The notes beneath the pieces were generated by a model, which was given only the letters and a program-made list of their open reading frames with translations, was not told the DNA's origin and did not search any database. DNA of 41,585 nt from a virus, in IMG/VR virus record IMGVR_UViG_3300017991_000191, positions 1 through 41,585 of that record; one strand, 5' to 3'. Shown piece after piece: positions 9,789 to 38,482 of the stretch. Every line of letters begins with the position of its first letter. The stretch's first letter is position 1. A program made the translations under genes and the position numbers.

Positions 9789-9794
9789 GCGCCG

Positions 9795-9812
9795 CCTCCC
9801 TGGAAAAGGAGG
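9795..9812 (+). promoter_or_regulatory. Hairpin masking the capsid gene ribosome-binding site
   Basis: CCTCC (9795-9799) pairs perfectly with GGAGG (9808-9812), the ribosome-binding site 6 nt before GTG 9819, with an 8-nt loop. A G-T pair extends the stem. This could tune capsid translation against the scaffold; it is not followed by a T-tract. Confidence 0.45.
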
Positions 9813-9818
9813 TAGGAA

Positions 9819-10925: not shown

Positions 10926-10937
10926 GAATGATGGTCC

Positions 10938-10954
10938 GGGGGATTTTACCCCCC
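10938..10954 (+). terminator. GC hairpin after the capsid gene, weak terminator or processing site
   Basis: GGGGG (10938-10942), loop ATTTTA, and CCCCC (10949-10953) form a stem directly after the capsid stop. Only two T follow, so termination would be weak; mRNA 3'-end protection is equally possible. Confidence 0.4.
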
Positions 10955-10974
10955 TTGTGATAAGGAGGAAATAA

Positions 10975-11841
10975 ATGGGTGCTGGAATGGTGAGAATGGG
11001 AGCAACTTCGGGTGCCAATTCGCGGGGTCCGAGTCCTATTATCTGGCGCGACTGTCGGGTTTCGACGTTCATTGAGAATCCGGATACTGGGTTCCATAAA
11101 TTTGATGACTTCAAGAACAGCGCGCTGAATCTAAACGCTGCTGGTGCAACTGATTTTGCAACTGGCGTCGGTGATTTGTCCAGTGACATTAACTGGTATA
11201 TCTATTGTGAGTCTGACAAGGTGGCTGATGTCGCTCTGCAACAGGACGATGACGGCGTGTTGCTGCTTCAGACCGATGGTACTGATGCCGATGTGATTGC
11301 TATTACATCTGGCAACAATGCTCAGGGCGTTATTAAGACTCCGGCTGAGGGCAGCCCTGCTAAGAAACTCTGGTTTGAATGTCGAGTAAAGACGAACACT
11401 ATTACCGATGATGACGGTGGTTTCTTTGTTGGTTTGACCCAACCCGGCGAAGCCAAAGATGCTGGTGGTGCTATGGCGGCTGGCGGTGCGTCTCTTAGTG
11501 ACGTGGACTACATCGGCTTTGCCCGATTGTCCGGCGACGGTGATGCATTGAAGTATGCCTATAATGAAGCTACCAGCGGTACGGCTCAGTCAGGTGCGGC
11601 TAAGACGATTGCTGCGGATACGTGGTATCGCCTTGGTTTCTGTGTGCGGGATAACGAGATTCGCTGGTATGTGGATGGCGTAGATGTTGGTGACAGCGCA
11701 GCTATCGACATTTCTCAGTCCAACGCTAATTATCCTGGTTCAACTGACATGGATGCGTTACTCGCATACGTAGCTGAGTCTGGTGCGGCTGATGCAGATG
11801 GTCTGTATATTGATTGGGTCCGCGTAGCCGTGGAGTACTAA
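10975..11841 (+). CDS. LamG/concanavalin A-like virion protein 1 (288 aa)
   Basis: ATG at 10975 follows a strong AAGGAGG. From about residue 40 to the end, the protein has the beta-sandwich pattern of a concanavalin A-like lectin domain: KLWFECRVKTNTITDDDGGFFVGLTQPG, YIGFARLSGDGD, TWYRLGFCVRDNEIRWYVDGVDVGD and YIDWVRVAVEY. The same blocks recur in the gene at 13327-14421, showing paralogy. It sits immediately after the capsid gene, the usual place for head-decoration proteins. A decoration role that binds glycans or capsid surface is the best guess. No catalytic residues of a glucanase are evident. Confidence 0.75.
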   Translation: MGAGMVRMGATSGANSRGPSPIIWRDCRVSTFIENPDTGFHKFDDFKNSALNLNAAGATDFATGVGDLSSDINWYIYCESDKVADVALQQDDDGVLLLQTDGTDADVIAITSGNNAQGVIKTPAEGSPAKKLWFECRVKTNTITDDDGGFFVGLTQPGEAKDAGGAMAAGGASLSDVDYIGFARLSGDGDALKYAYNEATSGTAQSGAAKTIAADTWYRLGFCVRDNEIRWYVDGVDVGDSAAIDISQSNANYPGSTDMDALLAYVAESGAADADGLYIDWVRVAVEY

Positions 11842-11853
11842 GAGTGATTTGAT

Positions 11854-11900
11854 CCCTGCCGGACAAGCTTATTGGCCTCCGGCAGGGTTCTGTTTTCTTT
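11854..11900 (+). terminator. Rho-independent terminator within the late arm
   Basis: CCCTGCCGG (11854-11862) and CCGGCAGGG (11879-11887) form a perfect 9-bp stem followed by TTCTGTTTTCTTT. It lies after the first LamG-like gene and should reduce, not abolish, transcription of downstream tail genes. Confidence 0.85.
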
Positions 11901-11910
11901 AGGGGGAACT

Positions 11911-12057
11911 ATGGTAGACGTCAAACAGGCACATAACACTCTGAGACAAGTTCTACGCAGTTTGAAATTGAATGCCGATGAACACGATGCGCTGCATCAG
12001 TGTCTCGAAGTTCTTTATGCGGCTGCTATGGAGCAGAAGGAAGAGGACAATGGCTGA
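11911..12057 (+). CDS. Small hypothetical protein (48 aa)
   Basis: ATG at 11911 follows AGGGGGA, so I prefer it to the in-frame start at 11872, which lies inside the terminator hairpin. The product begins MVDVKQAHNTLRQVLRSLKL and is almost entirely helical and charged, ending EQKEEDNG. Its last bases overlap the next gene (ATGGCTGA). It is unrecognised, and may be a small assembly chaperone-like or regulatory protein because of its location between decoration and connector genes. Confidence 0.65.
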   Translation: MVDVKQAHNTLRQVLRSLKLNADEHDALHQCLEVLYAAAMEQKEEDNG

Positions 12058-13315
12058 GCCGACATCGGCTTATACGGTACAGGATTTGATCCTGCGGGTA
12101 GCTAAGGCCGCTGGGGTTGCCTATTACGGCAGTTCTGGTACGGGCATAGCCGCCGTGCCAGTAGACGAGCATGACTTAGAACGCTGCTTGGATTGCGTGA
12201 ATGACGGCATCAAGATGTTCATTTCTTCCGCTCCAAAAAACGGTTGGCGGTGGATGCAGCGACTGCAAGAAATAACATTTGGCACAGTTCAAACAACTGG
12301 CACATGTGATTCTGCCGGGGACGCTACGTCACTAATCGACAGCAGCCTTGCCAGCACATATGACACCGATGACGAGATTGTGGGTTACTATGTCTACGAT
12401 ACAACGCAGGAAATTTATGCGGCGGTGACGGCCTATACAGCGGCTACTGGTGATATTACGGTATCGGAATGGCTGGATTATGATGACAATTCTAGTTCAC
12501 TGACTCCGGCCAGCGGTGACAGTTATTCCATCACGGACGTTCAGACCGTTGATGGGGACAAGGCGCGTTATCCGTTGAACCAAGATTTCTTTGGTGAAGT
12601 GTGCGGTGACATTACCTATGTGCCGGACAGCAGTCGGGTTCGAATCTACTGGGTTGGCGAGGATCACATTCGCAGGTTACAAGAAGTCACCGTACTGGAC
12701 AGCTATCCGAACATGGCGGCTGTGCGGCCCTGGCAAAATCGGCGTTGGGAATTGGTAGTCAATCCGTCTCCGAACAGCGCGGATACTGTGACCTTTCATT
12801 ACAAGAAGGGTTTTGCAGCGATGCAGGCAGTGACCGGCGAAGCATCTGCCGGTGACGCTACTTCAATTACGTGCTCGGATATCGCCGACCTTTACCCCGA
12901 CAACTATTTCAATGGCTGGACAGTTTACATTATCGGTGGGACAGGCCGCAAAAGTTATGCTGAAGTGACAGACTATGACGGCGGCACAGGGGCCTTTACT
13001 GTGGCTGATTGGCTGTCGGTCGATGGCTCAGCGGGCGGAACTGATCCGGATGCTACGTCTGAGTTTTTCGTGACCGATGGCACAAGACATCCTGCCGGAC
13101 AACAATTCGATGAGGCCATTCTGTCAGCCTGTCTTGCAAAAGCAGAACTGGAATTTGAGGATTTGCAGGTCGGCTACATGCAGAAATTCCTGCAAGTTGA
13201 TCTGCCGCGTGCCTGGGACATTGATGCGAGAAGTGCCCCTAAGAAATTGGGAAAAATGATGCCCGGTAAGCGCGAGCATCTTGAACGAACGTGGAACGAT
13301 GTTACAATTAGTTAA
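12050..13315 (+). CDS. Head-tail connector/tail adaptor-like protein (421 aa)
   Basis: I place the start at ATG 12050, preceded by GAAGAGG and overlapping the 48-residue gene. The longer frame from 11972 reads through that gene and lacks a site. The N-terminus (AYTVQDLILRVAKAAGV... DLERCLDCVNDGIKMFIS) and the C-terminus (FDEAILSACLAKAELEFEDL, then a helical end) are helical and flank beta-rich insertions that carry two similar units (GTCDSAGDATSLIDSS... and GEASAGDATSITCSD...). This helical/beta arrangement and its gene position suggest a podovirus adaptor such as a tail tubular protein A analogue. The assignment is from architecture, not a clear motif. Confidence 0.55.
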   Translation: MAEPTSAYTVQDLILRVAKAAGVAYYGSSGTGIAAVPVDEHDLERCLDCVNDGIKMFISSAPKNGWRWMQRLQEITFGTVQTTGTCDSAGDATSLIDSSLASTYDTDDEIVGYYVYDTTQEIYAAVTAYTAATGDITVSEWLDYDDNSSSLTPASGDSYSITDVQTVDGDKARYPLNQDFFGEVCGDITYVPDSSRVRIYWVGEDHIRRLQEVTVLDSYPNMAAVRPWQNRRWELVVNPSPNSADTVTFHYKKGFAAMQAVTGEASAGDATSITCSDIADLYPDNYFNGWTVYIIGGTGRKSYAEVTDYDGGTGAFTVADWLSVDGSAGGTDPDATSEFFVTDGTRHPAGQQFDEAILSACLAKAELEFEDLQVGYMQKFLQVDLPRAWDIDARSAPKKLGKMMPGKREHLERTWNDVTIS

Positions 13316-13326
13316 AGGGAGAGACA

Positions 13327-14421
13327 ATGGGATTTCATTCTCACGATCACAAGTTTATGATTGCCGCTCCTGCCGGGGAAGCAGCTCCTCAGACTATCTA
13401 CAAGACTGAGGACGGGATCGTTCTTGCATATGGCACTACGGTTCCGACCGATGCTACGACTGGTTATGCGGAAGGTTGTATTTTTATTCATGTAGATGGA
13501 ACTACTGGAACAGCGGTATATATCAATGAAGGTTCGGACACTTCATGTGATTTTAATGCCGTCATCACCAATGAAAACCTCACTACTATCGTTTCCGGTA
13601 GCAATCTTGTTAGTGAGATCGAATCAACTGAATTGGCTGATACTGCTGCTGGCGCGAGTCCGAGTCCGAACATCTGGAATGCTTGTCCGTGGTTACAGTA
13701 TGCGTTGGGTGCTGACAACGGTCTGACATATTGGAACCATTTTGACGGCAATTACGTCTTGGCTAATAATCAGGCGGCTACGGACCTCGGATTCGGCGTG
13801 GCCGGTTTTACTGGTGCAACCGCTGGTCAAACGATTGCAATGGAGACGGATGAACCTACTGGTGCCATTGTTTTGAATAGTTCAAATGACAATGAAACAA
13901 CTGGTATTTCCATTGGAGGCGGTTTGAACACAGCCGGTCAGTATGTCATTAAGAGCGGCAAGAAGTTTTGGATGGAATGTCGGCTCAAGATGGCGAACAT
14001 TACAGATGCTAAAGCCGGTGTATTTGTCGGTCTGGCTGAAGAGGCTTTGTTGTCTGAAGGCGGGATCATTGCTGATGGCGGCACTCTCACAGACAAAGAC
14101 CTTGTTGGGTTCTGGCGTCTGGAAGGTGACGGTGATAAGATGGACACTTATCACAATACTGCTGGTGGTGGCGAAACTACTGAGATCAAAGCTGACGCCG
14201 TGACATTAGAAGCCGATACGTATATCAAACTCGGCATGTACTTCGACGGCACTACACTGACATTTTATGCCGACGGCGTTGCACTGGCTGATACCGTTGA
14301 CTATGACGCCACTAATTTTCCTAATGGAGAAGAAGCAGCATTCTACATTGTAATCGGTGACGCATCTGATGATGATTTCAGCGTTACCGTTGATTGGGTT
14401 CGTATCGCCCAAGAGATTTAA
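13327..14421 (+). CDS. LamG/concanavalin A-like virion protein 2 (364 aa)
   Basis: ATG at 13327 follows GGGAGAG. The N-terminal third (about 1-95) is a separate beta domain with GYAEGCIFIHVDGTTGTAVYI and NEGSDTSCDFNAVI. The C-terminal two thirds resemble the protein at 10975-11841: KKFWMECRLKMANITDAKAGVFVGL, LVGFWRLEGDGD, TYIKLGMYFDGTTLTFYADG and VTVDWVRIAQEI. The gene is therefore a paralogue with an added N-terminal module, likely another head or tail surface protein. A strong terminator follows its stop. Confidence 0.75.
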   Translation: MGFHSHDHKFMIAAPAGEAAPQTIYKTEDGIVLAYGTTVPTDATTGYAEGCIFIHVDGTTGTAVYINEGSDTSCDFNAVITNENLTTIVSGSNLVSEIESTELADTAAGASPSPNIWNACPWLQYALGADNGLTYWNHFDGNYVLANNQAATDLGFGVAGFTGATAGQTIAMETDEPTGAIVLNSSNDNETTGISIGGGLNTAGQYVIKSGKKFWMECRLKMANITDAKAGVFVGLAEEALLSEGGIIADGGTLTDKDLVGFWRLEGDGDKMDTYHNTAGGGETTEIKADAVTLEADTYIKLGMYFDGTTLTFYADGVALADTVDYDATNFPNGEEAAFYIVIGDASDDDFSVTVDWVRIAQEI

Positions 14422-14459
14422 GACCCCCTACGCAGCGTTGTTTTCCGCTGTGGTTTATA

Positions 14460-14501
14460 GCCGGAGAGAGCGCGGAGGACGTTCTCTTCGGCTTTATTTT
14501 T
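14460..14501 (+). terminator. Rho-independent terminator within the late arm
   Basis: GCCGGAGAGA (14460-14469) pairs along all 10 positions (one G-T) with TCTCTTCGGC (14483-14492), followed by TTTATTTTT. It separates the second LamG-like gene from the tail genes. Confidence 0.85.
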
Positions 14502-14510
14502 GGAGTAGAT

Positions 14511-14717
14511 ATGGAGATTTTGTTTCCGTTTCGCGGGTTGAATAAGGGCATTCCTTCGAGCAAGCAACCGATAGATACAGCGCGTGACTTGCAGAATGTG
14601 CGCCCGTTCAAGGATGGGCGTCTGCGCGGAGGGCAGAGACCGGGGTTGAAGAAAGCGAGTGCTACGGAGATGGCCGGGCCAGTGGTGGAGATTGTGACAG
14701 TGACGGTGATTGACTGA
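14511..14717 (+). CDS. N-terminal fragment of a tail protein (68 aa)
   Basis: ATG at 14511 is preceded by TGGAG. The product begins MEILFPFRGLNKGIPSSKQP and continues DTARDLQNVRPFKDGRLRGGQRPGLKK. The FPFRGLNKG and VRP...GRLRGGQRPGL blocks are, from memory of phage proteins, the beginning of a much longer tail protein, not a stand-alone product. The frame ends after VEIVTVTVID with TGATG overlapping the next gene, which begins with a LamG domain. I infer that one ancestral tail gene was split by insertion of the LamG segment and that both parts are still co-translated. Confidence 0.6.
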   Translation: MEILFPFRGLNKGIPSSKQPIDTARDLQNVRPFKDGRLRGGQRPGLKKASATEMAGPVVEIVTVTVID

Positions 14718-16993
14718 TGGCTATTATATTAAACGGGACATCACAGTATCTTAGCCAGACTGCTGTGTTTGGCGCTGGAACTGACCTAAGTGGTTACCCA
14801 TTTACTGTATCTGCCTGGATAAAACCGGCCAATTTAACGGCCAGTCATCCGGTATGCTCAATAGAACGCAGTGATGCCTCCTTCTTTATCGCTATGTTTG
14901 CCCGTGGGTCTGCGGCTGGCGATCCCGCTGCGATTTGGGGATACAATTCTGGCGGATCAAATGGATGGGCGGAAACTTCGTCCGGCTATTCTGCCGGTGT
15001 GTGGCAACATGTTTGCATGGTGTGTGAGAGTGATTCCAAACGCACCATCTACCTAAACGGTGGTTCATCTGGTGAGGATACCACCGATATAGATTATCCT
15101 ATAACCGCTGCACAAGATGGATTTGAAGTTGGGATATGGTCTGCTGATGGTGGGCCAAACGGCTACTTTGAAGGTCGTATCGCTCAGCTTGCCACTTGGG
15201 ATGTGGCACTTTCCGGAGCCAGTATAGCACGTTTAGCTAATGGCGCGGCTCCTACCGTAGTCGAAGATTCCAATTTGCAGAATTATTGGGATTTCGTTTC
15301 TGACGCAACTGATAGTATCGGCGGAGATGATTTAACTCCGACGGGTTCGCCCACTTATGATGATACTGATGAACCAGGCCCGGTTGATACAGCTCCGTCA
15401 GAAAAAATCTCTACGAAGCATATCGTATGTTTTGGTGGTCACAATGTTTACAAAGGCAGTACTCTGGCCGGGTTAGCCGTTGTATCTGATGCGTCCGGGG
15501 ACATGGATACGACGAAGCGATTAGATGCGTTTGATGCCGAACAAAAGGTATTCATTGCCAATCGAGAATATCTCCGAGTCTTGGATTGCGCCAACACGAA
15601 ACTTACGACTGCTGACATCGGGGCCAATCCCCCGGATCGTGGGAACACACTGACCGGGGGGACGAGCGGGGCAACGATGGTGGTGGATTACATCGACGCC
15701 TTGATGGGGGCAACTACGGTCTATGGCTATCGCACTTCAACGGCCACGTTTGTTAATACTGAGACCGTCACTGGAACGGACGACGACAGCAACGCCATAT
15801 CGTTTACATTGAACGCTGATGAAGATGCGCCGGACCATTGGTACACCTGGACAGAATATGGCGGCAGCACAACTAATATGCCAGATCGGGCAACCATCGC
15901 GGCTCATTGGCGAGGTAGGGCGGTTCTGGCGGGGAATAGCTACAACCCAACACAGTTTTGGATGAGTCGGGTGAACAATCCCTGGGACTTTGATGCCGAC
16001 ACTCCGACCAGCAGCGATGCTCTTCGTCCGATTTACGGGGCATTGGGCGATACTGGACGACCGGGGGACGTTATCAAGGCTATCATACCGTTCAACGACA
16101 CCTATCTTATTTGGGCCTGTGGTTCCACCATATATCTCACTGTCGGCGATCCAGCAGCCGGTGGGCAAACAGGCGACATCAAAGGTGTGGGCGGCATCAT
16201 CGACAGCCGTGCCTGGACGTGGGACGATAAGGGCAATCTCTGGATGCTCACTGAGTTTGGTCTGATGCGTGTGCCAAAGGGATTTGGTTCCTTCGAGAAC
16301 ATGACCGAGGACACTTATCCTGATCTCATTGACGATATTGATTTTGATGCAAGTACAGACCGAATCGTCATGCAGTATGACAGCGTGCATCATGGTATTG
16401 TAATCGCCGTTTCGGATGTTAGCAGCGTGGCGAATACCGCAAACTACTTCTATGACCCACGAACAGGCGGACTGTTCAAAGATGCGTGGCCGGATGTGCA
16501 GACTATCTATTCCAGTTGTTACTACGGGTCTGATACCCCTGCGGATCGGCTGACAGTGTTCGGTTGTAGTGATGGCTACCTGCGAACATTCGACGCCGAT
16601 ACCAAGAACGATGACGGCACGGCCATCAACAGCTATGTTGATTATGGACCGATTCCGTTGGGGGACGGGCAGGATCGAGAGGGCATTATCCACGCCATCA
16701 AGGCGGAGTTGGGCGGCGGATCATCTGGCGGCTCTGAAACCGACTCTGACGATTTGTCCTACAAAATATGGGTTGGTTCGTCTGCCGATGGGGTGGTGGA
16801 AAAATTATACGCCAACACGACGCCAAACATTGCCGGGACATTCAGTTCTCCGGGCAGGCGTAGAGGCGGAGCGAACAAACGGAAGGCAAAGGGGTTGTAC
16901 GGGGGCGTGAAAGTCTACAACACAACTTCAGGTGAAGCGTGGTCACTGGAAAAGATGCTGGTCGATGTGCGACTGGCGGGGAGACGTAAGTAA
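14717..16993 (+). CDS. Tail protein with N-terminal LamG domain (758 aa)
   Basis: ATG at 14717 shares its A with the previous stop. Residues 1-200 form a LamG/pentraxin-like domain: ILNGTSQYLSQT, FTVSAWIKP, GVWQHVCMV, RTIYLNGGSSG, GYFEGRIAQLATWDVALS and LQNYWDF. After a short linker, the rest changes character: HIVCFGGHNVYKGSTLAGLAVV, RVLDCANTKL, DRATIAAHWRGRAVLAGNSYNPTQFWMSR, FNDTYLIWACGSTIYL and DDKGNLWMLTEFGLMRVP, a repeat-rich beta structure suggestive of a propeller. This is a large tail component; the LamG part could bind host glycans. The end is Gly/Arg/Lys-rich. Confidence 0.75.
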   Translation: MAIILNGTSQYLSQTAVFGAGTDLSGYPFTVSAWIKPANLTASHPVCSIERSDASFFIAMFARGSAAGDPAAIWGYNSGGSNGWAETSSGYSAGVWQHVCMVCESDSKRTIYLNGGSSGEDTTDIDYPITAAQDGFEVGIWSADGGPNGYFEGRIAQLATWDVALSGASIARLANGAAPTVVEDSNLQNYWDFVSDATDSIGGDDLTPTGSPTYDDTDEPGPVDTAPSEKISTKHIVCFGGHNVYKGSTLAGLAVVSDASGDMDTTKRLDAFDAEQKVFIANREYLRVLDCANTKLTTADIGANPPDRGNTLTGGTSGATMVVDYIDALMGATTVYGYRTSTATFVNTETVTGTDDDSNAISFTLNADEDAPDHWYTWTEYGGSTTNMPDRATIAAHWRGRAVLAGNSYNPTQFWMSRVNNPWDFDADTPTSSDALRPIYGALGDTGRPGDVIKAIIPFNDTYLIWACGSTIYLTVGDPAAGGQTGDIKGVGGIIDSRAWTWDDKGNLWMLTEFGLMRVPKGFGSFENMTEDTYPDLIDDIDFDASTDRIVMQYDSVHHGIVIAVSDVSSVANTANYFYDPRTGGLFKDAWPDVQTIYSSCYYGSDTPADRLTVFGCSDGYLRTFDADTKNDDGTAINSYVDYGPIPLGDGQDREGIIHAIKAELGGGSSGGSETDSDDLSYKIWVGSSADGVVEKLYANTTPNIAGTFSSPGRRRGGANKRKAKGLYGGVKVYNTTSGEAWSLEKMLVDVRLAGRRK

Positions 16994-17979
16994 TGGCAAA
17001 AGCAAAACCGAACATCACAGGTCTATACGCCAATCTGTACGATGAATATCAGGCAGGCCGAGAGACCGGACGCGGGCTATTCGGAACCGGTCTGCAATCG
17101 CTTCAGCAAGCGGCTGATTTGTTCGCTCCTGGCGGGGCGTTTGAAAAATCGGCTATGGAACAATACGAGACCGGCAAGCGCAAAGCTCTGTCAAGTGGGA
17201 TGCAGAACTTGATAAGTTCCGGTCTCGCCAAGACAAGCACGCCTGCGGCTTTGGAGCGTGGGTATGAGCAAGAGGTTGGCACGCCGTTTCGCACGGCTGT
17301 CGCGGCTGAGGGACAGGGGCGATTGGCGTCGGCCTTGCAGAATATAGCAAATTACGGCCTTCAATATCAGAATCTATATCCGTCCGCTGGCACATTGAGT
17401 TATCTGGCTACCGGTGGATTTGGGGCGCTGTCATCGGAAGATGCGAGACAGCAGGCATTGACCGCATCTCAGCCGAGTGTGACAGAGCGGTTGGCAGCTC
17501 TGCGTGGTGGGGGCGGATTTAGCGCCGGTTCAAGTCCGTTTGGTGGGGCTGGTTCTTGGTTCGGCGGAGGCGGTTCATCTGGCAAGCAAACTTCTGGTTC
17601 CGGTGGACAACGAACACTGACTACTTACGGCCCCCAAAGTGGGGCGGAATCGACAAGTGCGCCTGCTGAAATGATGATGGGGGCCGATCCTGGATGGAAC
17701 GCAAGTTATTGGGCAGGTCGAGTTCCATCTACTACTGAGGCTCTGGCTTCGGGGGGAATGATGAGCGATGTATATGAGAGATCACTTGGCATGAGTCCTG
17801 GTAGTAGCGGAACAACCGTACCGATTACTGTTCAGCATTACACTAAACGAGGAACGGGTGATACCAAGACTATCCAAGTTCCTCAAGATGCTCTTGGCGG
17901 CGGGCCGGGGGGATTTGTAAACACTGCGATGTACCAACAATACATACCGTCGGGCTATGAAATCTATAACAAAGGGTAA
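16993..17979 (+). CDS. Putative tail or internal virion protein (328 aa)
   Basis: The start overlaps the previous stop as TAATG. The N-terminal half is helical and alanine-rich (GLYANLYDEYQAGRETGRGLFGTGLQSLQQAADLF ... SGMQNLISSGLAKTSTPAALERGYEQ), and the middle (about 175-215) is Gly/Ser-rich and probably disordered. I recognise the GLYANLYDEYQAG type of N-terminus only loosely from phage structural regions. There is no signal peptide or catalytic motif. Position between tail and fibre genes supports a virion role. Confidence 0.65.
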   Translation: MAKAKPNITGLYANLYDEYQAGRETGRGLFGTGLQSLQQAADLFAPGGAFEKSAMEQYETGKRKALSSGMQNLISSGLAKTSTPAALERGYEQEVGTPFRTAVAAEGQGRLASALQNIANYGLQYQNLYPSAGTLSYLATGGFGALSSEDARQQALTASQPSVTERLAALRGGGGFSAGSSPFGGAGSWFGGGGSSGKQTSGSGGQRTLTTYGPQSGAESTSAPAEMMMGADPGWNASYWAGRVPSTTEALASGGMMSDVYERSLGMSPGSSGTTVPITVQHYTKRGTGDTKTIQVPQDALGGGPGGFVNTAMYQQYIPSGYEIYNKG

Positions 17980-17982
17980 AAA

Positions 17983-19797
17983 ATGCTTGTACCGGTCCCC
18001 AACCCCCAGAGCAATGACCAGCAGTTCAAGTTTGAAGTCAGCCGGGCTATCGCTGCGCTCGCATCGAACAAGTTGGGTGAGAGTGCGTCCCCTACATTCG
18101 GAGGACTTACTGTGTCCGGAACTACTACTTTGAGTAGCTTGACTGCCAGCCGACTTGTTCAGACGAACGTAAGTAAGGCACTGGCGTCTGTATCCGATCT
18201 AACAAGTTGGATAGGTGGAACCAGCGGCATCCTTTCTGCGACCGATAATGGGGACGGAACGATCACACTGAATATCTCTGATCTATCCGACCCCAGCGCT
18301 GACCGAATACCGTTCTGGGACGAGACGGACAACAAAATCAAGTGGGCATCGGTTATCGGAAACGGACTAACACTCTCCGGTACGACGCTGTATTGGGCTT
18401 GGCTCAACATGGAATCTCTGAGTGAAACTCCTGCCGATGATAGTATGATGGTGTATGAGAATGTCTCTGGCGGGATGACGTGGGAGAGCGGATCAACCCT
18501 GCGCACTACACTTGGGCTGGCTATCGGTTCTGACGTGCAAGCCTGGGATGATGACTTGGATGATATTGCGGCGCTGACTCCGACCGATGGGAACTTCATG
18601 GTTGGGGATGGAAGTGATTGGATAACGGAATCGGGGAATACCGCTCGCACTTCTCTGGGATTGGGAACAGGGGATACGCCGCAGTTTACTCGGTTGGGCA
18701 TTGGAGCCGCCGCTTCTTCTGGTTTTGGTGTTCGCAATATCTTCAATACTTCTAATACGGCGGTTGCTACTGAATATGCTGTTTATTCTCAAATGGTGTG
18801 CGAACCTGCTGCTAATTCCGGAACGTATTTCCGGGGTGGCCAATTTGAAGTTGAGACTAAAAGTGCTAATAATTTCACTGGATATGTTCAGGGAACTTTA
18901 TATTTAGTAGAGCATGAAGGTACTGGAACATTAGCGCAGCAAATTGGTTTGGACATCAGACCACAAAATTCTTCTACCGGCACGGTATCAGACCAACGTG
19001 CTTTGAATATCTTCTCTTCCAATGAGGCTGCCGGGGGTACTGTATCACAATACTATGGCATCTATCACAACTATTCCAATGTTGGAACTTTAACTGCCAG
19101 TTATTTCATCTATGACTTATCGGATATGGATAGTTACTTTTCTGGTAAGTGCGGGTTTGGAGACAGCAATCCACAAGAAGATGTTCATGCTAATGATACT
19201 GTGCGGGCAGACGTTGCGTTTAACTTAAATGGAACAGATATAATCACTTCTGCCTTGGCGTCTTTTGCAGATGTTCATACTTCTACCGGCGGGGCAAATT
19301 TAGCTGGTTCATATACCGCTATCAGACCGACAAACAGTACGGATTTAGTTGAAGCTATTCGACTTGGTAGGTATGGCAATGACATACGGTATCACTCCAT
19401 CTATCAAAAATGTGGTTCTACCACGAATAGTTATCTGGAATTTCGTATCCATGATGGTGGGGGGAGTCCATATACCGGGCAAACTACACTGTTGCGACTC
19501 GAAGGCAGTACCCCGGAAGTCAAAATACTTGGACATACGCATATAGATACAGCAACAGATTTGGGGACAGAAGCTCTTAAGATTCAACAGGATGATGACG
19601 ACCAAGCCTTCATTGATTTTGATGGCACTTCTGCTGCCGATTCATCCAAGAACATCTCTACGCAAAACGGCGATGGCAGCGTAGAGGGGCCAAAGAATTA
19701 CAGTGCGGCGAATGGCTGGGCCTTTGAGGGCATGGTAAAAGTAGAAGTAAATGGAGCGGCACGATGGATGCCGTATTACTCTGAGGACACAGCATAA
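17983..19797 (+). CDS. Tail fibre protein (604 aa)
   Basis: ATG at 17983 is 4 nt after the previous stop. The N-terminus contains FEVSRAIAALASNKLG followed by SPTFGGLTVSGTTTLSSLTASRLVQTNVSKALASVS, a pattern I associate with phage tail fibres. Asn/Gly/Thr-rich triple-beta sequence follows (NGDGTITLNISDLSD, TSLGLGTGDTPQFTRLGIG). The distal half is serine/threonine/tyrosine-rich and ends GWAFEGMVKVEVNGAARWMPYYS. It should be the receptor-binding part of the virion. No chaperone domain or depolymerase motif is evident. Confidence 0.8.
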   Translation: MLVPVPNPQSNDQQFKFEVSRAIAALASNKLGESASPTFGGLTVSGTTTLSSLTASRLVQTNVSKALASVSDLTSWIGGTSGILSATDNGDGTITLNISDLSDPSADRIPFWDETDNKIKWASVIGNGLTLSGTTLYWAWLNMESLSETPADDSMMVYENVSGGMTWESGSTLRTTLGLAIGSDVQAWDDDLDDIAALTPTDGNFMVGDGSDWITESGNTARTSLGLGTGDTPQFTRLGIGAAASSGFGVRNIFNTSNTAVATEYAVYSQMVCEPAANSGTYFRGGQFEVETKSANNFTGYVQGTLYLVEHEGTGTLAQQIGLDIRPQNSSTGTVSDQRALNIFSSNEAAGGTVSQYYGIYHNYSNVGTLTASYFIYDLSDMDSYFSGKCGFGDSNPQEDVHANDTVRADVAFNLNGTDIITSALASFADVHTSTGGANLAGSYTAIRPTNSTDLVEAIRLGRYGNDIRYHSIYQKCGSTTNSYLEFRIHDGGGSPYTGQTTLLRLEGSTPEVKILGHTHIDTATDLGTEALKIQQDDDDQAFIDFDGTSAADSSKNISTQNGDGSVEGPKNYSAANGWAFEGMVKVEVNGAARWMPYYSEDTA

Positions 19798-27566: not shown

Positions 27567-27736
27567 TTTACCTCCTCAATGTTAACTTTAACTACTGTTT
27601 CATCTATGCACGCATATTGTTTTGCTGATTCACAAGTAGGGTAAAGAGTGGCGATTTTTAACTTACCATAGATGTCATTGCCGAAAAATCCAGATAGATA
27701 TTGTCCTTTGCTGTTCTTAATTACCCATGCTTTCAT
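27563..27736 (-). CDS. Small conserved-looking protein (57 aa)
   Basis: I place the start at ATG 27736, which overlaps the stop of the primase gene as TAATG, instead of the longer frame inside that gene. The product has MKAWVIKNSKGQYLSGFFG, then YPTCESAKQYACIDETVVKVNIEEV, a beta-alpha-beta-like miniature domain. It is translationally coupled both upstream and downstream. No function is recognised. Confidence 0.65.
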   Translation of the reverse strand: MKAWVIKNSKGQYLSGFFGNDIYGKLKIATLYPTCESAKQYACIDETVVKVNIEEVK

Positions 27737-29931
27737 TACACAGCTCCTAAATACTGTTGCTTCGATCTCTCTTTGATTTTTACACCGGCCCAAACCGGAA
27801 CAACCCTGCCCCCTACAGAACGTCTTTTACGAATCAGCTTAGGGAACACCGATTTGAAGCGCACTCGAAACAATGCGGACCCCATCGGCTTCAAACCCCA
27901 CTCTTCGTACACGGCTTTATGGAGATCAAACATCCAGTGAATCGGAATAAAAAATTCACTGGAATCTCCAAATTGGCAATGCTGCTTTACCATTGTAGAA
28001 AGTGGACTGGACAGCTCGCAATAATCGGCTAGATGTTCCTTGGTGGCGGCAGGGCGAGTAAACTCACCATTTGCCAACAACCGTTGTAGACCTTCTAACG
28101 CCCAATTAGCAATGCCAGGAATTTCCTGAATTAACTTGTCGGGCAACCGACGGTCTATCTTTCCCTCTTCCTGGGTGTAATCATTGGGGTAATAGAGCAG
28201 ATTAAATCGCCGCAGGAATGCACCTTGATCGTCGTGAAACCTTGGTAATTCGTTTCCAACGTAAGTGAATCGACAAAACAGTTGAGCGTCAAATGGGTCT
28301 CTGTATTTCCGTTCGAGCTTGACTGTATCTTCTCCAATGATCTTTTTGAGTTGCTGCACCAACTTCTCTGAATCGACGTGGTTGGTTGTTCGATCCTCCG
28401 ATATGATCGCCGCGTATTTTCCAAACAAATCATATGGGCCGAAGCGGTCCTTGAACTTGTCAAAAGAGAACGAGCTGACACGCTCCGGCCCAAGAAGGGC
28501 CTGCAATACCCTGGCTGTCGTGCTCTTGCCGCTGTTCCGCACGCCATAAAGCATCATCATTTGCTGCATCCGATTGGACGCTATCATGTTATAGCCTGCC
28601 CATTCTTGCAGCAGGTCGTGACTTTGTTCATCGGCATTGAAAATGTCACGGACAAAGCCGCGAGTAAGCGGACACTTAGCGCGGGGATTGTAGTCATATG
28701 GCAGCGTGCTGGTTACAAAAATATCCGGATGGAACGGTCTTAACGTCATGGTGTCAATGTCGAGTATGCCGTTGCGAAACACGACCAGCTTTTCTACATC
28801 GAGTTGTTCTCTATTTTCAATGTGGAACGGCTCGAAGATTCCGTTCGGCACTCCGACATGACACAAAGACGCCAGAGAGAATTTCACATCCTCAATGAAC
28901 TTGCGGGTTGGATTCAGCCGGTCACAGCGAACATCGTTTTGCGTGTGCCGCAGAACAGAAAACGTATTGAAGTATTTGAACAGGTCATTATTGAGCCACT
29001 GATCTTTTCTTCCGTCCGTTCTCTCATAGTATGAACCGTTGTAGTGATACCAATCGTCGTGTACTTGATGGAAGGTGCGATAGTCATCATCCATCCAGTT
29101 GTCGTCAATGTATCGCTGTGCCAGTTCATACTGATTGACTTCCTCGATCACACGGCTTTCATCACTGCGTTCAGCCTTTTGTTCTAACCACAATTCAAAC
29201 TCTTCAGCCGTCGGATGCCATGCTCGGAGGTCTTTGTGTTTGGCCGGGGGCAAGATTTTCTGTACCGATTTGCAGGTTTCACCCAACAAGCGATACATTT
29301 TCTCCATGCCCTTGCGACCAGCATCATCGTTTTCTCCGATGATTATGACATCTCGGCCTTTAAGCAGTTCACGGAGTATCTTTGCCCCACCTTCAGCGGA
29401 GGGACGACCAATAGCGACATAGCCCATGTCCATTGCCGCAAGAGTGTCAGTAGCCCCTTCGACTACAATGATGGGTTTGTCAGTATCAGGCAACGGACAT
29501 TCATAGATCAGGCCGCGTTTGCCGCCTTTCTCCATGTGCTTCGTGCCCTTGTTCGTCCGCTTTAGAACACCGATGATCTTGCCCCGTTCGTCGCGTTCGG
29601 GGAAAGTCCACAGATGACCGAACGGCCAAAAACCCACTTCTAATCGGCGAATAGATTCGACCGACACACCGAGTAATTCAGAGACAATTTCATCAATTCC
29701 CTCGATGAGATTCCGGTTATACCGAAAGTGCCATTGTTCCATTTCAGACATCTTGAATCCGGCATTCCGTTCCGGGTCCAGAATGTGTAACCAACCACCA
29801 GATTCCCCTACACTGCGGTCGCTTGGCTGTTTGGTGCAGACAATCGCTGATCCGTTTGCGTTGGTCATGCACCATTTCTCACGACCACACAACGGACAAG
29901 GATTGTCCTTGGTGACTCTAATCCATCCCAA
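27736..29931 (-). CDS. Primase-helicase: zinc finger, Toprim and SF3 (D5-like) helicase
   Basis: I prefer TTG 29931, six bases after AGGAGGT, to the GTG at 29979 without a site. From that start (731 aa) the order is: zinc finger C12/C15/C21/C32; Toprim-like domain with VVEGATDTL (E158) and GENDDAGRKG (D202/D203); a linker; a D5-N-like region (LPYDYNPRAKCPLTRGFVRDIF); Walker A YGVRNSGKSTTA (462-473); Walker B-like AAIISEDRTTN; and a winged C-terminal part. Toprim and SF3 domains joined in one chain make primer synthesis or priming-linked unwinding at the fork likely. The hairpin ATGGTC/GACCAT at 29955-29972 lies in the leader. Confidence 0.9.
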   Translation of the reverse strand: MGWIRVTKDNPCPLCGREKWCMTNANGSAIVCTKQPSDRSVGESGGWLHILDPERNAGFKMSEMEQWHFRYNRNLIEGIDEIVSELLGVSVESIRRLEVGFWPFGHLWTFPERDERGKIIGVLKRTNKGTKHMEKGGKRGLIYECPLPDTDKPIIVVEGATDTLAAMDMGYVAIGRPSAEGGAKILRELLKGRDVIIIGENDDAGRKGMEKMYRLLGETCKSVQKILPPAKHKDLRAWHPTAEEFELWLEQKAERSDESRVIEEVNQYELAQRYIDDNWMDDDYRTFHQVHDDWYHYNGSYYERTDGRKDQWLNNDLFKYFNTFSVLRHTQNDVRCDRLNPTRKFIEDVKFSLASLCHVGVPNGIFEPFHIENREQLDVEKLVVFRNGILDIDTMTLRPFHPDIFVTSTLPYDYNPRAKCPLTRGFVRDIFNADEQSHDLLQEWAGYNMIASNRMQQMMMLYGVRNSGKSTTARVLQALLGPERVSSFSFDKFKDRFGPYDLFGKYAAIISEDRTTNHVDSEKLVQQLKKIIGEDTVKLERKYRDPFDAQLFCRFTYVGNELPRFHDDQGAFLRRFNLLYYPNDYTQEEGKIDRRLPDKLIQEIPGIANWALEGLQRLLANGEFTRPAATKEHLADYCELSSPLSTMVKQHCQFGDSSEFFIPIHWMFDLHKAVYEEWGLKPMGSALFRVRFKSVFPKLIRKRRSVGGRVVPVWAGVKIKERSKQQYLGAV

Positions 29932-30024
29932 GCGATACCTCCTGAAAAAAGATGATGGTCCTCCGTGACCATGTGTCACTCCGTTTGTAGAAAGAAAGGA
30001 GCACTATGATGGGGCAGTTTTTGT

Positions 30025-31770: not shown

Positions 31771-32619
31771 TCACCCACCAAACACTAACCTCCAAACCGA
31801 ATCATCCTCCGGTTTTTCAAACTGTACCACGTCATACTCTATCGGAATTGTCCGACTTTTGGCCTCGAAATGTGCTTCTGGCTGAACATAGACTGCTCGC
31901 ATACCACCACCGGAAATCTTACGATCACTGTCAACGACCGTTCCAGCATAGTCCATTCGTAGCACATGATCGGCCCAGGCAATGTAAGCATCGAGGATGG
32001 AAATGTCCTTGCTGTTGTAGAGATCAGGAGTATCCATCAAGTAATCTTCACCGCCGGGATTGGCCTTCTTGCGAGTAGCCCGCTGAGCCAGCATGAGAAT
32101 GTTACGACCAGCCCGGACATGCCTGTCACAATCTGACAGTATCAGGCGAGTCGTGTCATACCAATGCCGGTAGCCCTTGCCGTAGCCGTAATCCTCAATG
32201 TTCTGAGCGGTTGAACCCTTTGGTCCACTGACACGATTGAAGGTTCCCTGCAAAGCAAGAGATTGTAACTCTGTTATCGTGTCTATGATGATAGTCTCAA
32301 AGTCATTCAACACGTTAGACTGAAGAACGGCCCGCACATCTTCGAATGTTTCAACCTCCGGCACGCGCTTGAGCGGTTTGCCGGTTTTAGGATTTCGAAT
32401 CTTGCGACCGCCATCATCCAAACCGATGATTACTGGGTTTGGGGCCATCGAAGCCAGCGTAGTCTTGCCAATGCCGGAGCGACCATAGAGAATGATCTTT
32501 TCGCCTTCATCGGCACCGGTCCAGGATTCTACAGTGAATGTCTTATTGGTTACTACTTTGTCTCGCACAGGCGGAGCGGCTCGCTTAGCCGGGGGTTTAG
32601 GTCTTGGGGCTTTACTCAA
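31771..32619 (-). CDS. Sak4-like RecA-fold ATPase, single-strand annealing recombinase
   Basis: The start is TTG at 32619, overlapping the previous stop as TTGA, with GGAGG seven bases before. After a Pro/Lys/Ala-rich N-terminal tail (1-28), the AAA/RecA-type core has Walker A YGRSGIGKTTLA (45-56) and Walker B ETIIIDTITEL (108-118). Further phage-typical parts are GYRHWYDTTRLILSDCD and GRNILMLAQRATRKK. The nucleotide-binding phage family with GRSGIGKTT includes Sak4, which promotes recombination with an SSB partner. Its neighbours (SSB-like protein, RecB-like nuclease) support this role. The C-terminus EDDSVWRLVFGG is acidic then hydrophobic. Confidence 0.85.
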   Translation of the reverse strand: MSKAPRPKPPAKRAAPPVRDKVVTNKTFTVESWTGADEGEKIILYGRSGIGKTTLASMAPNPVIIGLDDGGRKIRNPKTGKPLKRVPEVETFEDVRAVLQSNVLNDFETIIIDTITELQSLALQGTFNRVSGPKGSTAQNIEDYGYGKGYRHWYDTTRLILSDCDRHVRAGRNILMLAQRATRKKANPGGEDYLMDTPDLYNSKDISILDAYIAWADHVLRMDYAGTVVDSDRKISGGGMRAVYVQPEAHFEAKSRTIPIEYDVVQFEKPEDDSVWRLVFGG

Positions 32620-34127: not shown

Positions 34128-34326
34128 TACACAAAAAATCTTCAACAACGGCACTACCATGATTTATGCTCACAAAACTTTCACATGCGCGACATGTGAA
34201 CAATAGCGGCTCGTATGGATCACTCCAACTGCGCGTGTCACCATATATGTGAAGTTCTTGTTGCCCACAATATGGACAATACAGAAGGACTTTTTTGCCA
34301 TCGTTCGTTTCTTGAGCTGTCATCAT
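34099..34326 (-). CDS. Zinc-ribbon protein (75 aa)
   Basis: ATG at 34326 overlaps the polymerase stop as ATGA. The protein has CPYCGQQELHIYG and, about 28 residues later, CRACESFVSIN, a four-cysteine zinc ribbon of the DNA/RNA-binding or protein-binding type. The product ends SEEKGKRAE. It is encoded between polymerase and recombination nuclease genes, so it may be a small replication or transcription accessory factor. Confidence 0.7.
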   Translation of the reverse strand: MMTAQETNDGKKVLLYCPYCGQQELHIYGDTRSWSDPYEPLLFTCRACESFVSINHGSAVVEDFLCSEEKGKRAE

Positions 34327-37223
34327 TTACAATACCTTTCAGCTAATTTCCCCTCAGCTTCCAGCGGGAACCCTTTGGCCCACGGCGGTACAATCGTCAT
34401 CAACTCGCCCATTTCTTTCAGCCGATCCTCAGCATTGTGCTCTTGCAAGAATGTCACGATTTCATCGTGAACGGTGAGCACGCACCAGAAACCATGCTCC
34501 TGTAAACGAAGTAACGATTCAGCAATGAAGTCACGGCAAAAAGCTTGGACCACATTTTCCGTCAATGCCCCACCCCACAAATGTCCCCAGTGATAGCGGA
34601 GATTTCCGTTTGATCTATCTACTTGAGCGTGTGGGTATCGGAGAATACGACCAGATGGCAATCGAATAAAAGTTGCCCCACTCTGATTCCAAAATTCAAG
34701 ACCACACTCTTTCAGCATCCGATGTTCGCCTGGATATTTCGTAGCAAACCGCCAAGCGTTTTCCAGCTTTTTCCAATAAGCCGGAATCCGAGAATACTTT
34801 GTCCTGTAAGTTTTGATTACCTTTTCAACGAACAATACATCGAACGTGCCGTCATCAAATTTGGGGCGTAGTTCGGGATTAGTGTAGCAGCGGCCATAAA
34901 ACTTGGCTGCGCCCATGCCATAGCCTGCGCCAAGAATGGCGTCTTTACCAAAACCTCGCATGATAACAAGCTCTTTAGCTTCTTCATCCGATTCTTCACC
35001 AGTTGGTTTGTGAACCTTCTTGCCAAAAAGCTGAGAAGCAAGATCGGAGTACACATCGACACCGGTCGCAAAGCCTCGTAACAAATCTGATTGCCCGGCC
35101 TGCCATGCTACTCCGACTGCTTCTACTTTGCTATAGTCCTGGATGCCCAGCACGTACCCTTTAGGAGGTAGGAACATGTTCCGTACCTGTTGGATGAGTT
35201 TGTGCGTGCCTTGTCCTCCACGACCAGCACCCCCCAGGTTTTGCAAATTGATTGAGTTGCCTGTAACAGACACGCAACCATTGTGGCGAACTATCCATGC
35301 CCCACTCGGAACCGTAGGACAATATACGTTTCCAGAAAACGTCTCTCTGCTCCAATTGTCACAACGGCTCATGCTTAACTTATCTCGTTCTGAAAAATTT
35401 AGCCTATAGTGTTTATTTCTATCGCCAACAATGTACTCTGTTAGTTTTACACACAAACCTAAGCCGGATGTTATTGCTAAAATCTGAACTTGATCAGCTA
35501 ACTTTTTTGATGCCGTTGTCCAAACGAATCTGTTATTTTTTGTGTGACTTCCATCCCAATATGGCAGCTCGTCAAAAAAGGCAATAAGGTTAAGGCCGTC
35601 CGGGAACTGCTTTTTAATTTTTGGCGACAGCCATATTGGAATTTTTGTTCCAAGATTGAAGTTTGTGCCGCGCTCATAATAACATTGAGTTGTATATTCA
35701 ATTTTGAGTCTTTTTAGGAGCGACTCAAATCGTTTGATCTTTCTGTCTTTCTTAAAACGAAACTGTAAATATGGCGTCCCGGCAGACGTATGCTGGAACC
35801 ATCCATCAGCTTGTGTCGCCACTATAAGTCTCGTTTGATCCTCAGTAAATGTGGGCTTGTCTCTTTGTAATCTGCCGTTACATGGTACATATCCACTGGG
35901 GCGATCAACAGCCAAACACTCACCCCAATTGCCCTTGGATGACCACCTTAGAATCCTGTGTTCAGGAGTACATTTAAGTGACAGCGATGCTCCACATAGA
36001 TGTAGTAATGTCCCGGAATAAGCGTGCGTATTTTTAATAGCACGAACAAATGTTATTCGCCCGTCATTCCATTGTGCTATTCTATCTGTCTCATTCCAAT
36101 TTTGTATCGATACCCACCCATTTTCAGATAACACTTCATGGTCTTCGGTAACGCATTCGCATCCAGACCATCGCCCCGTATGGGCTCCATGATAACCAAG
36201 AGGCGTGCCGATACGCCCATCTTGGCACTTGGCTTGCTGCATGATGTTTCGGACCTTCTTGATGTGCAACGGCCAAGATTGAATTGCCTGACGAGCTTTA
36301 GCCAGGAGACGGACAGTTTTGTTTTCGTGGTGTAACAGCCAATGCATTCCCTCATCATCTTTAGCAAGAGCCGGGATCATTTTATTTTTGCCCTGCTTCA
36401 TAGGAACGGACTGACCTTCTGGGAGGTTCTCTTTGAGCAGCGCGACAAAACTCTTATCGCCACTAATCTTCTCAGCCGTCACTCTAAGACCTCGGACATT
36501 GAGCCGTTTCACAGCGTTATTCCGTTCCGCTTCCATACCATCAAGAATCTGTTGGCCCAACTCCATGTCGATGCGAAAAGTTGGTTTCAGAAACATCTGA
36601 TGAGTGAGATTAGCAATTGGTAACTCAATTTCAGGGCGGGAAACAACGATAGGCAACATCTTCTTGAATAGCCATGCTTCAATGTCCGCATCGTTCTTGG
36701 CATACTCGGCCCATAACAATCTTTGTGTGCGGGTCATGTCATCCCAATGCAGCCCCTTAGATTGAACCGTATCTCCTTTTTGAGCGGGGGCCTTCCATCG
36801 CTTTGCCATATCAGCAAGATGATGTCTTGCTCTTGCGTCCCACATCTTGTCCAAATCTATTGTGTCTACGATGTACTTGGGAGTAATGCCAAAGTGATGA
36901 CATAGGATAAGACAATCGAAGTTGGCATTTTGGCAGACTACTGTGACATTTTCCAGGTCATCTCCATATAGCTTCCTCAAGGTGCGACCTACTGGACGGA
37001 GTAAGCGTTTGTTATCGCCGTCCATCGGTTCCTCGAACCACGTACCATCAGTTTGTAAACTGTGGCAGGCCAATCCCGTAAACGCGAACCGCTTATCGGT
37101 TACATACTCAATGGTGGACATTTTGGATAAGGTGTAGTCCTTATCCCAGAATGTTTCGAAGTCAAGTACAAGGGCCTTAGTTGGAAAACCGGCAGAGTGG
37201 AGGACTTGCTGCCAGTCCTGCAT
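34323..37223 (-). CDS. DNA polymerase I family (A), interrupted by an intein
   Basis: The 966-residue precursor carries a 3'-5' exonuclease (LDFETFW with D21/E23; NANFDCL near 100; YAKNDAD near 175-180), the polymerase entry HTGRWSG (348-354), motif A IQDYSKVEA (D696), motif B RGFGKDAILGAGYG (R756, K760, L764) and motif C LTVHDE (H919-D920-E921). An intein from C357 to N656 interrupts the conserved HTGRWSG...NLQN block; splicing would give a 666-residue enzyme beginning MQDWQQVLHSAGFPTK. The position equivalent to E. coli Phe762 is Leu764. It lies in the early/middle arm with primase, nuclease and ATPase. Confidence 0.95.
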   Translation of the reverse strand: MQDWQQVLHSAGFPTKALVLDFETFWDKDYTLSKMSTIEYVTDKRFAFTGLACHSLQTDGTWFEEPMDGDNKRLLRPVGRTLRKLYGDDLENVTVVCQNANFDCLILCHHFGITPKYIVDTIDLDKMWDARARHHLADMAKRWKAPAQKGDTVQSKGLHWDDMTRTQRLLWAEYAKNDADIEAWLFKKMLPIVVSRPEIELPIANLTHQMFLKPTFRIDMELGQQILDGMEAERNNAVKRLNVRGLRVTAEKISGDKSFVALLKENLPEGQSVPMKQGKNKMIPALAKDDEGMHWLLHHENKTVRLLAKARQAIQSWPLHIKKVRNIMQQAKCQDGRIGTPLGYHGAHTGRWSGCECVTEDHEVLSENGWVSIQNWNETDRIAQWNDGRITFVRAIKNTHAYSGTLLHLCGASLSLKCTPEHRILRWSSKGNWGECLAVDRPSGYVPCNGRLQRDKPTFTEDQTRLIVATQADGWFQHTSAGTPYLQFRFKKDRKIKRFESLLKRLKIEYTTQCYYERGTNFNLGTKIPIWLSPKIKKQFPDGLNLIAFFDELPYWDGSHTKNNRFVWTTASKKLADQVQILAITSGLGLCVKLTEYIVGDRNKHYRLNFSERDKLSMSRCDNWSRETFSGNVYCPTVPSGAWIVRHNGCVSVTGNSINLQNLGGAGRGGQGTHKLIQQVRNMFLPPKGYVLGIQDYSKVEAVGVAWQAGQSDLLRGFATGVDVYSDLASQLFGKKVHKPTGEESDEEAKELVIMRGFGKDAILGAGYGMGAAKFYGRCYTNPELRPKFDDGTFDVLFVEKVIKTYRTKYSRIPAYWKKLENAWRFATKYPGEHRMLKECGLEFWNQSGATFIRLPSGRILRYPHAQVDRSNGNLRYHWGHLWGGALTENVVQAFCRDFIAESLLRLQEHGFWCVLTVHDEIVTFLQEHNAEDRLKEMGELMTIVPPWAKGFPLEAEGKLAERYCK
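35256..36155 (-). other. Intein with LAGLIDADG-type endonuclease domain in DNA polymerase
   Basis: The coordinates cover polymerase residues 357-656 (300 aa). Block A is CVTEDHEVLSENGW; block B is LKCTPEHRIL with the conserved T and H; the C-terminal blocks are VYCPTVPSGAWIVRHNG and CVSVTGN followed by extein Ser657. The penultimate residue is Gly rather than His, a variation seen in many phage inteins. The central part has two LAGLIDADG-like helices: TRLIVATQADGW (D473) and LIAFFDELPYWDGS (D557), the acidic catalytic positions. The insert sits at a block essential for polymerisation, so splicing must be efficient. It is a probable active homing intein. Confidence 0.93.
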
Positions 37224-37468: not shown

Positions 37469-37593
37469 TAGTTAACCTCCACTACCGATTCATCATCGTA
37501 TGTGTCTACTCTTGTGATCGGTCCAAGTGAATCCTCTACCTCATAATCAGGTGGGCACTCACTCAACTTTTCAATTAGTTCTTCAACTGTCAT
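37468..37593 (-). CDS. Small MTVEEL-type protein (41 aa)
   Basis: This frame was read directly: ATG at 37593 to TAA at 37468, which overlaps the MazG-like start. The product begins MTVEELIEKLSECPPDYEVE and is the second member of the MTV(K/E)EL family in the window (compare 26801-26950). Such phage microproteins have no known function. Confidence 0.6.
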   Translation of the reverse strand: MTVEELIEKLSECPPDYEVEDSLGPITRVDTYDDESVVEVN

Positions 37594-38482
37594 TGTCAAG
37601 TTCCTCCAATCGACGACGTATTAACTCGATCTGCGACTCTCGAACATCTATTGCCACATAGTTCCGCCCAAGTTTCTTTGCTGCCGCCGCCGTAGTACCC
37701 GAACCAGCGAAGGGGTCAAGTACTACCCCATCGGGTGGGCAAAAGGAGCGGATCATAAATTCGGCCAGGGCTTCAGGAAACGGAGCCTCATTCTCATGGG
37801 CGATCTTAGAACCTAAGTGACCGCCACTACACCGGATGACGTTGCCGGGGTTTGCCACTTTAGGGGGCTTGTAGATAGAACCGTTTTTGCGTGTAATGGT
37901 TCCGTCTGCGTTTAGTGTCCCTGATCTTCCACCGTGTGATGCGTGAGGCATGTCGTCCTTTGCACCACTCAGCTTTCCGGACACACGGACACGCTTGCCG
38001 TCTTTCTTTCGATGAGTAGGATCGCCACCTGGACCAAACTTAGGCTCATCGCCCATAGCTGTGTTGTCTGACCACGGCAGTCGTCCACCATTGGTGGCAG
38101 ATACAATGTACTCAAGATCGTGCCGCAGCCAATCAGGGCCACCACTGCCAGGAATACCGGATCGGTGATAATATGGTCCTTCGCGGACACAGACACCGGC
38201 CCGGTGTAAATCGGCCATGAGCAAGGCGGGTGTACAAGACCACTGATACTTTCGTGTTCGGCCTTGGACCACGAATGCCACCAACCCCCTGCAAACACGC
38301 AGACTCGCTTTGTAGACTTCGACCATCCAGTCAACCCAATCTTGTCCCTTTAAGTTGAAGTCTATGCCATATGTGCGGGCGTCTTCATAAGGCGGACTGC
38401 CAAAAATAAGATCAACAGAACGAGGTGGTAAACGATGAAGTTCCTCCAGAACATCACCGCAAATTACACGGTTGTCTAACAC
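37583..38482 (-). CDS. DNA methyltransferase, SPPY-type, beta-class order (299 aa)
   Basis: Motif IV is SPPY (29-32) after ICGDVLEELHRLPPRSVDLIFG, and motif I is LDPFAGSGTT (255-264) near the C-terminus, followed by GRNYVAIDV. The order IV-X-I is the beta-class arrangement of amino-methyltransferases. SPPY (not DPPY) suggests N4-cytosine methylation, though N6-adenine cannot be excluded. The central variable segment (about 90-215, HRSGIPGSGGPDWLRHDLEYIV... and NADGTITRKNGSIYKPP) would read the target. With no restriction gene nearby it is probably an orphan enzyme protecting phage DNA. Confidence 0.9.
   Translation of the reverse strand: MLDNRVICGDVLEELHRLPPRSVDLIFGSPPYEDARTYGIDFNLKGQDWVDWMVEVYKASLRVCRGLVAFVVQGRTRKYQWSCTPALLMADLHRAGVCVREGPYYHRSGIPGSGGPDWLRHDLEYIVSATNGGRLPWSDNTAMGDEPKFGPGGDPTHRKKDGKRVRVSGKLSGAKDDMPHASHGGRSGTLNADGTITRKNGSIYKPPKVANPGNVIRCSGGHLGSKIAHENEAPFPEALAEFMIRSFCPPDGVVLDPFAGSGTTAAAAKKLGRNYVAIDVRESQIELIRRRLEELDNDS

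Follow-up and report, generated by a model that had tools for sequence, protein, structure and literature searches.

The described systems closest to the locus analyzed here are inteins of phage genes and a group I intron. Phage APSE-1 carries an intein in its family A DNA polymerase, but this lies far downstream at the site GGKS^CENI, has an HNH gene annotated within it and ends in HN. A homologous intein ending in GN is present in the family A polymerase of Escherichia phage Mangalyan, although at the site GDAH^CNNA; identity of the position described below with that of either phage was rejected, since the sites differ. In Mangalyan (L186, 488-5077) an HNH gene comes after the intein-bearing polymerase gene, as does a distinct piece with the annotation DNA polymerase A, and the polymerase gene looks to have been broken up by several elements. 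Phage SPO1 bears a mobile element in the same conserved polymerase block as the one interrupted here, but it is an RNA-level group I intron about two codons downstream of the present site, at a boundary that corresponds to Asn675/Leu676 of E. coli Pol I (PMC2814812). The RDF intein of mycobacteriophage Bethlehem is a class 1 phage intein with a penultimate Gly that splices to completion (PMC5050341), but it resides in another host gene and is likened here by description rather than by alignment.

The stretch of DNA analyzed, hereafter the window, is the entire virus record IMGVR_UViG_3300017991_000191 (41,585 bases), in which the polymerase ORF is present once. This ORF (34323..37223, minus strand) is a single open frame encoding a 966 aa precursor of a family A phage DNA polymerase that contains an intein. 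Pfam detects both DNA_pol_A (51.2 bits, cut-off 34.3; E 1.2e-13) and the 3'-5' exonuclease domain DNA_pol_A_exo1 (42.2 bits, cut-off 23.6; E 1e-10), PHROGs assigns it to phrog_17 DNA polymerase (E 1.7e-73), and a profile of the extein family matches Klenow (E 3.5e-31). Membership in the family A polymerases with a 3'-5' exonuclease is also apparent from the motifs DFETF, DYS, RGFGK...GYG and HDE, which are visible in the sequence. As delimited by Pfam and sequence, the N-extein (36156..37223, minus; 356 aa) contains the exonuclease domain and has HTGRWSGCE at its C-terminus, and the C-extein (34323..35255, minus; 310 aa plus stop) begins with SINLQN. Aligned to Klenow, the interrupted block reads TGRLSSTDPNLQN. 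The TGRW..NLQN block of family A polymerases adjoins the primer-template DNA. Elsewhere the record encodes an Endonuclease VII (2344-2829, plus), a primase with D5 and DUF5906 domains (27736-29979, minus), a Sak4-like annealing protein (31771-32619, minus) and a DNA methyltransferase (37583-38482, minus), and PHROGs gave no match at E 0.001 for any of the seven large ORFs examined in the interval 8688-19797 (plus).

The intein itself (35256..36155, minus) is a 300 aa element in which homology, structural modeling and motifs identify a Hint splicing domain with an inserted two-motif LAGLIDADG endonuclease. It spans residues 357-656 of the precursor, from C357 (CVTEDHEV) to N656 (VSVTGN), in the context HTGRWSGCE^...^SINLQN, and its excision leaves a polymerase of 666 aa. 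That the interruption of the polymerase by an intein is real and not a chance occurrence is confirmed, because a tblastn search with the intein alone against 50,697 phage records gave matches in 315 records at E<=0.01, and in 175 of these the match covered 80% or more of the intein. The aligned phage inteins extend across query residues 1-300 and reside, by annotation, in nicotinamide phosphoribosyltransferases, ribonucleotide reductases, primases, helicases and DNA polymerases. A single place accounts for 80% or more of the spliced polymerase in 128 of the 1533 phage records that it matched, and of the 966 aa precursor in none of 1682. A start at C355 (CECVTED) instead of C357 was rejected, since homologous inteins begin with Cys-x-x-x-x-x-Glu, like CVTEDHE, and empty alleles need the residues CE. 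In G+C content the intein (41.8%) is lower than its exteins (48.2%), ranking 7 of 814 among 900-base windows.

Removal of the intein restores the conserved protein in frame: when the 666 aa product was compared with inteinless relatives, no gap was found within 14 residues around the join in any of 81. These 81 comprise the best 80 of at least 581 confirmed loci, including the viral contig L022, together with L002, APSE-1 being deliberately excluded; the ranking favors uninterrupted genes and thus demonstrates that empty alleles exist, not how frequent they are. Under a stricter rule that the join be spanned, 81 of 82 aligned loci, now including APSE-1, qualified; the exception was L022, where the contig ends upstream, although it too is empty and reads TGRFSGAGGINLQNLGG. 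This contig end (1-120) falls inside the TGR block, at most eight residues from the insertion site, which may reflect chance or an assembly break. The nearest empty relatives among the best loci, L014 and L015, are 50-51% identical and read HTGRWGGTEGINLQNLGG, and the junction of phage phiA008 reads GGTESINMQN. Hence, the exact ends and the joined 666 aa product given by the first-pass annotation, and its placement of the insertion in a conserved polymerase block, are borne out, and the inteinless alleles that it had proposed to seek among relatives do exist.

The residues expected of a class 1 intein are all in register on the minus strand, as judged from the sequence and an alignment of 69 inteins from which duplicates had been merged and seven members dropped as too short (L344, L369, L370, L375, L376, L379 and L386). 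The first nucleophile, Cys1 (36153..36155), is Cys in 69/69; the TPEH motif of the TxxH type (35958..35969), which we take to be block B, has its His conserved in 69/69; the terminal Asn, N300, closes the VTGN sequence (35256..35267); and the second nucleophile is Ser+1 of the C-extein (35253..35255). Both acids of the LAGLIDADG endonuclease are retained, as had been noted from the sequence at the outset: D117 lies in motif 1 (ATQADG, 35802..35819), where the alignment has Asp in 42/69 and Glu in 25/69, and D201 in motif 2 (PYWDGS, 35547..35564), where Asp is invariant (69/69). A block F Cys, C279 (35319..35321), is shared by 66/69. Assignment to class 3 was rejected, since Cys1 is present, whereas that class requires the absence of a nucleophile at position 1; of the class 3 Trp-Cys-Thr motif (B12, F4, G5), the Cys and Thr are present and no Trp was seen at B12, presumably Ile68 here by numbering.

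At the sequence level, LAGLIDADG_3 is the only Pfam model reaching its cut-off on the intein (24 bits against 22.5), and it falls below the cut-off when the entire 966 aa ORF is scanned. None of the Pfam splicing-domain models reached threshold on the intein, NCBIfam returned nothing above cut-off for it, and phmmer against the PDB gave one weak match, AceL NrdHF-1-1 (E 0.45). Among 44 homologues at E<=0.01, Intein_splicing matches six and LAGLIDADG_3 matches 25. The fold class is established by an AlphaFold2 model built from 44 inteins (that of the window and 43 from IMG/VR), which has a mean pLDDT of 93.6 and a pTM of 0.91, and displays a Hint fold together with a LAGLIDADG endonuclease. Structural comparisons with Foldseek and VIA-align 2 rank endonuclease-bearing inteins first: the top solved match is TliVMA (Z 23.2, 288 residues, rmsd 4.8), with PI-PfuI at Z 22.2 and PI-SceI at Z about 19, and Foldseek matches the LAGLIDADG part to I-DmoI. 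The Hint part resembles that of many inteins and of hedgehog, most tightly that of the class 3 AceL NrdHF intein (6zgq; rmsd 1.7 over 138 residues).

The first-pass annotation had singled out the terminal dipeptide, GN rather than HN; the GN is indeed present, with Gly in place of the usual but not required penultimate His, but it is not remarkable. In the 69-intein alignment 62 end in GN (61 if L322, a 389 aa sequence scored as GN only through an extraction overrun, is dropped), and Gly is penultimate in 64. Four of the seven others (L327, L346, L350 and L343) were shortened by extraction, and L326, L331 and L371 end in QN, CN and SN respectively. Class 1 inteins of mycobacteriophages keep the penultimate His inconsistently, and replacement of Gly by His slows splicing of the RDF intein (PMC5050341). 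Because most of its relatives end in GN and the RDF intein with this ending splices, the GN end neither counts against splicing nor sets the present intein apart, and the idea that it is unusual was rejected in favor of its being the norm of the group.

Taken together, the element is very probably a class 1 intein of full length that carries a LAGLIDADG endonuclease of the homing type, inserted in a phage family A polymerase that would be spliced to 666 aa. It is a complete intein of a known kind and probably an active one. Established intein chemistry applied to this anatomy predicts that Cys1 would undergo an acyl shift, attacking the bond after Glu356, that Ser+1 would then receive the N-extein, and that the terminal Asn would cyclize without the aid of a penultimate His, setting free the contiguous 666 aa polymerase. 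The endonuclease domain, in turn, would be expected to cut the intein-free site in polymerase genes of other phages, whereupon repair would copy the intein in. With 300 residues lodged in a conserved block, the unspliced precursor is likely to be inactive, and the dependence of the polymerase on splicing can be soundly inferred.

Among the 81 empty relatives the residue at +1 is Lys in 58, Ser in 10, Gly in nine, Asn in two, and Gln and Glu in one each; thus, a splicing nucleophile already stands at +1 only in the 10 with Ser, and 71 lack Ser, Thr or Cys. A comparable situation is described for the haloarchaeal MCM-d intein (PMC10643990), where +1 is always Ser in invaded alleles and mostly Pro in empty ones, and where Pro at +1 blocks splicing yet leaves the site recognizable to the endonuclease. 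By analogy, a similar +1 limit may lie behind the apparent rarity with which the present site is filled.

This composition of the +1 position also bears on whether the intein still moves. It could instead be a splicing-competent element whose endonuclease is no longer homing, and which persists only since its removal must be exact. This reading, which we regard as unlikely though deserving of serious consideration, is favored by the lack of a suitable +1 residue in most empty relatives, by closest inteins that are merely 32-33% identical, and by the absence of a second occupant of the insertion site in searches of the HTGRW context; against it stands the retention of both acids and of a complete endonuclease fold. 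The proposal of recent or active homing, which had been drawn from those acids, is nonetheless not sustained: distant relatives retain them as well (position 201 is Asp in 69/69, position 117 Asp or Glu in 67/69), these searches revealed neither a close intein relative nor another occupant of the site, and the lower G+C content of the intein suits a foreign origin but gives no date. Its G+C rank among the 900-base windows would also fit an assembly artefact joining the intein of another phage into this polymerase; however, the frame runs continuously over both junctions, both exteins fit the same relatives exactly, and Cys1, the terminal Asn and Ser+1 are in register, which makes an artefact extremely improbable.

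Two alternatives concern the function of the intein rather than its mobility. Its placement in a conserved part of the polymerase, close to the core, might suggest a switch that delays the polymerase until conditions allow splicing, and a non-His penultimate residue tunes the splicing speed of a phage intein (PMC5050341); yet 81 of 81 relatives do without an intein, and we consider such a switch highly improbable. A class 3-like route, in which C279 of block F attacks first and Cys1 is dispensable, is highly improbable: the near-universal presence of this Cys, the Thr preceding the terminal GN and the tight match to the AceL NrdHF intein would accord with it, but Cys1 is itself invariant, and class 3 inteins lack a position-1 nucleophile and have a block B Trp (PMC5050341), a residue not seen at the presumed equivalent place of the window intein. 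The preferred reading thus remains that of a class 1 intein of the homing type.

The insertion position appears to be new, in that no other occupant was found in searches that covered the HTGRW context and inteins related to this one. The pattern HTGRWxGxx^C, which sees this context only and recovers the window itself, retrieved 25 stretches in IMG/VR, none of them in a polymerase, and at least 119 in genome_contigs, none in a polymerase among the matches listed; a single-protein search of viral_contigs with the intein yielded no relative, and the literature covered, which leaves out most subscription papers, yielded no description of an intein in this position. The element itself is an ordinary selfish element of a familiar kind.

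A scan of IMG/VR with a three-intein alignment gave 80 loci out of 100 confirmed, and a family A polymerase profile, applied to the hosts after joining, identified 10 of the 80 as such polymerases. In one, the environmental phage locus L308 (3001-3909), the intein is inserted at TGRW^SGKKVQFQN, four codons upstream of the window site counted from TGRW and three counted from NLQN, the L308 block being one residue shorter. In L348 and L349 (3001-4002) it lies at TGRWGAEDPM^CQNWP, between the counterparts of the N and the L in NLQN, the codon boundary at which the SPO1 group I intron is also inserted. The other seven (L322, L323, L327, L342, L344, L346 and L350) were read as carrying inteins near the motif B helix, the score of L342 being weak (E 5e-5); four of these inteins (L322, L327, L346 and L350) apparently have Gln rather than Asn as their last residue, with Thr or Cys following.

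A further scan with the pattern GAxTGRW^C recovered, among at least 120 stretches, a second W^S intein of an environmental phage polymerase (L500, on its minus strand) and the L308 contig again (L451). The L308 and L500 inteins, 55.9% identical to each other, are, among those found, the closest to the window intein by sequence (32.5% and 33.4% identical respectively), and resemble it in gene family and block, in being class 1 with GN, and in length (303 aa); they differ in their insertion 3-4 codons upstream and in polymerases only 27-30% identical to that of the window. FastTree groups L308 with L500 (1.0) and both with the window intein (0.954), and trees built without L500 unite the window intein with L308 (IQ-TREE ultrafast bootstrap 100; FastTree 0.926), with weak nodes next deeper (FastTree 0.03-0.37, IQ-TREE 36-61). 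Given the long branches, this grouping could be a sampling effect. We tentatively entertain, at somewhat less than even chances, that these inteins share one ancestor in the polymerase block, whose insertion point moved 3-4 codons between polymerase subfamilies. If so, intein sites could slide inside a conserved block, a behavior not predicted by exact-site homing, and, with L348 and L349 included, a span of about seven codons in the TGRW..NLQN block would contain three or more intein sites.

This cluster of neighboring sites, in which 3-4 codons separate related inteins, lies outside the original finding and is the part of most specialist interest. Beyond adding an intein position in a phage replicative polymerase, it reveals a single conserved stretch of codons in which the insertion points of inteins and of a group I intron are clustered. 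Nature thereby provides a test of the way in which LAGLIDADG inteins switch targets and of how the +1 residue limits their spread. The splitting of family A polymerase genes by inteins is also relevant to users of this gene as a viral marker. On a plasmid of Stanieria cyanosphaera (L188, 901-1836), the sole plasmid match among 72,556 records, a homologous intein resides in a DUF5906 protein.
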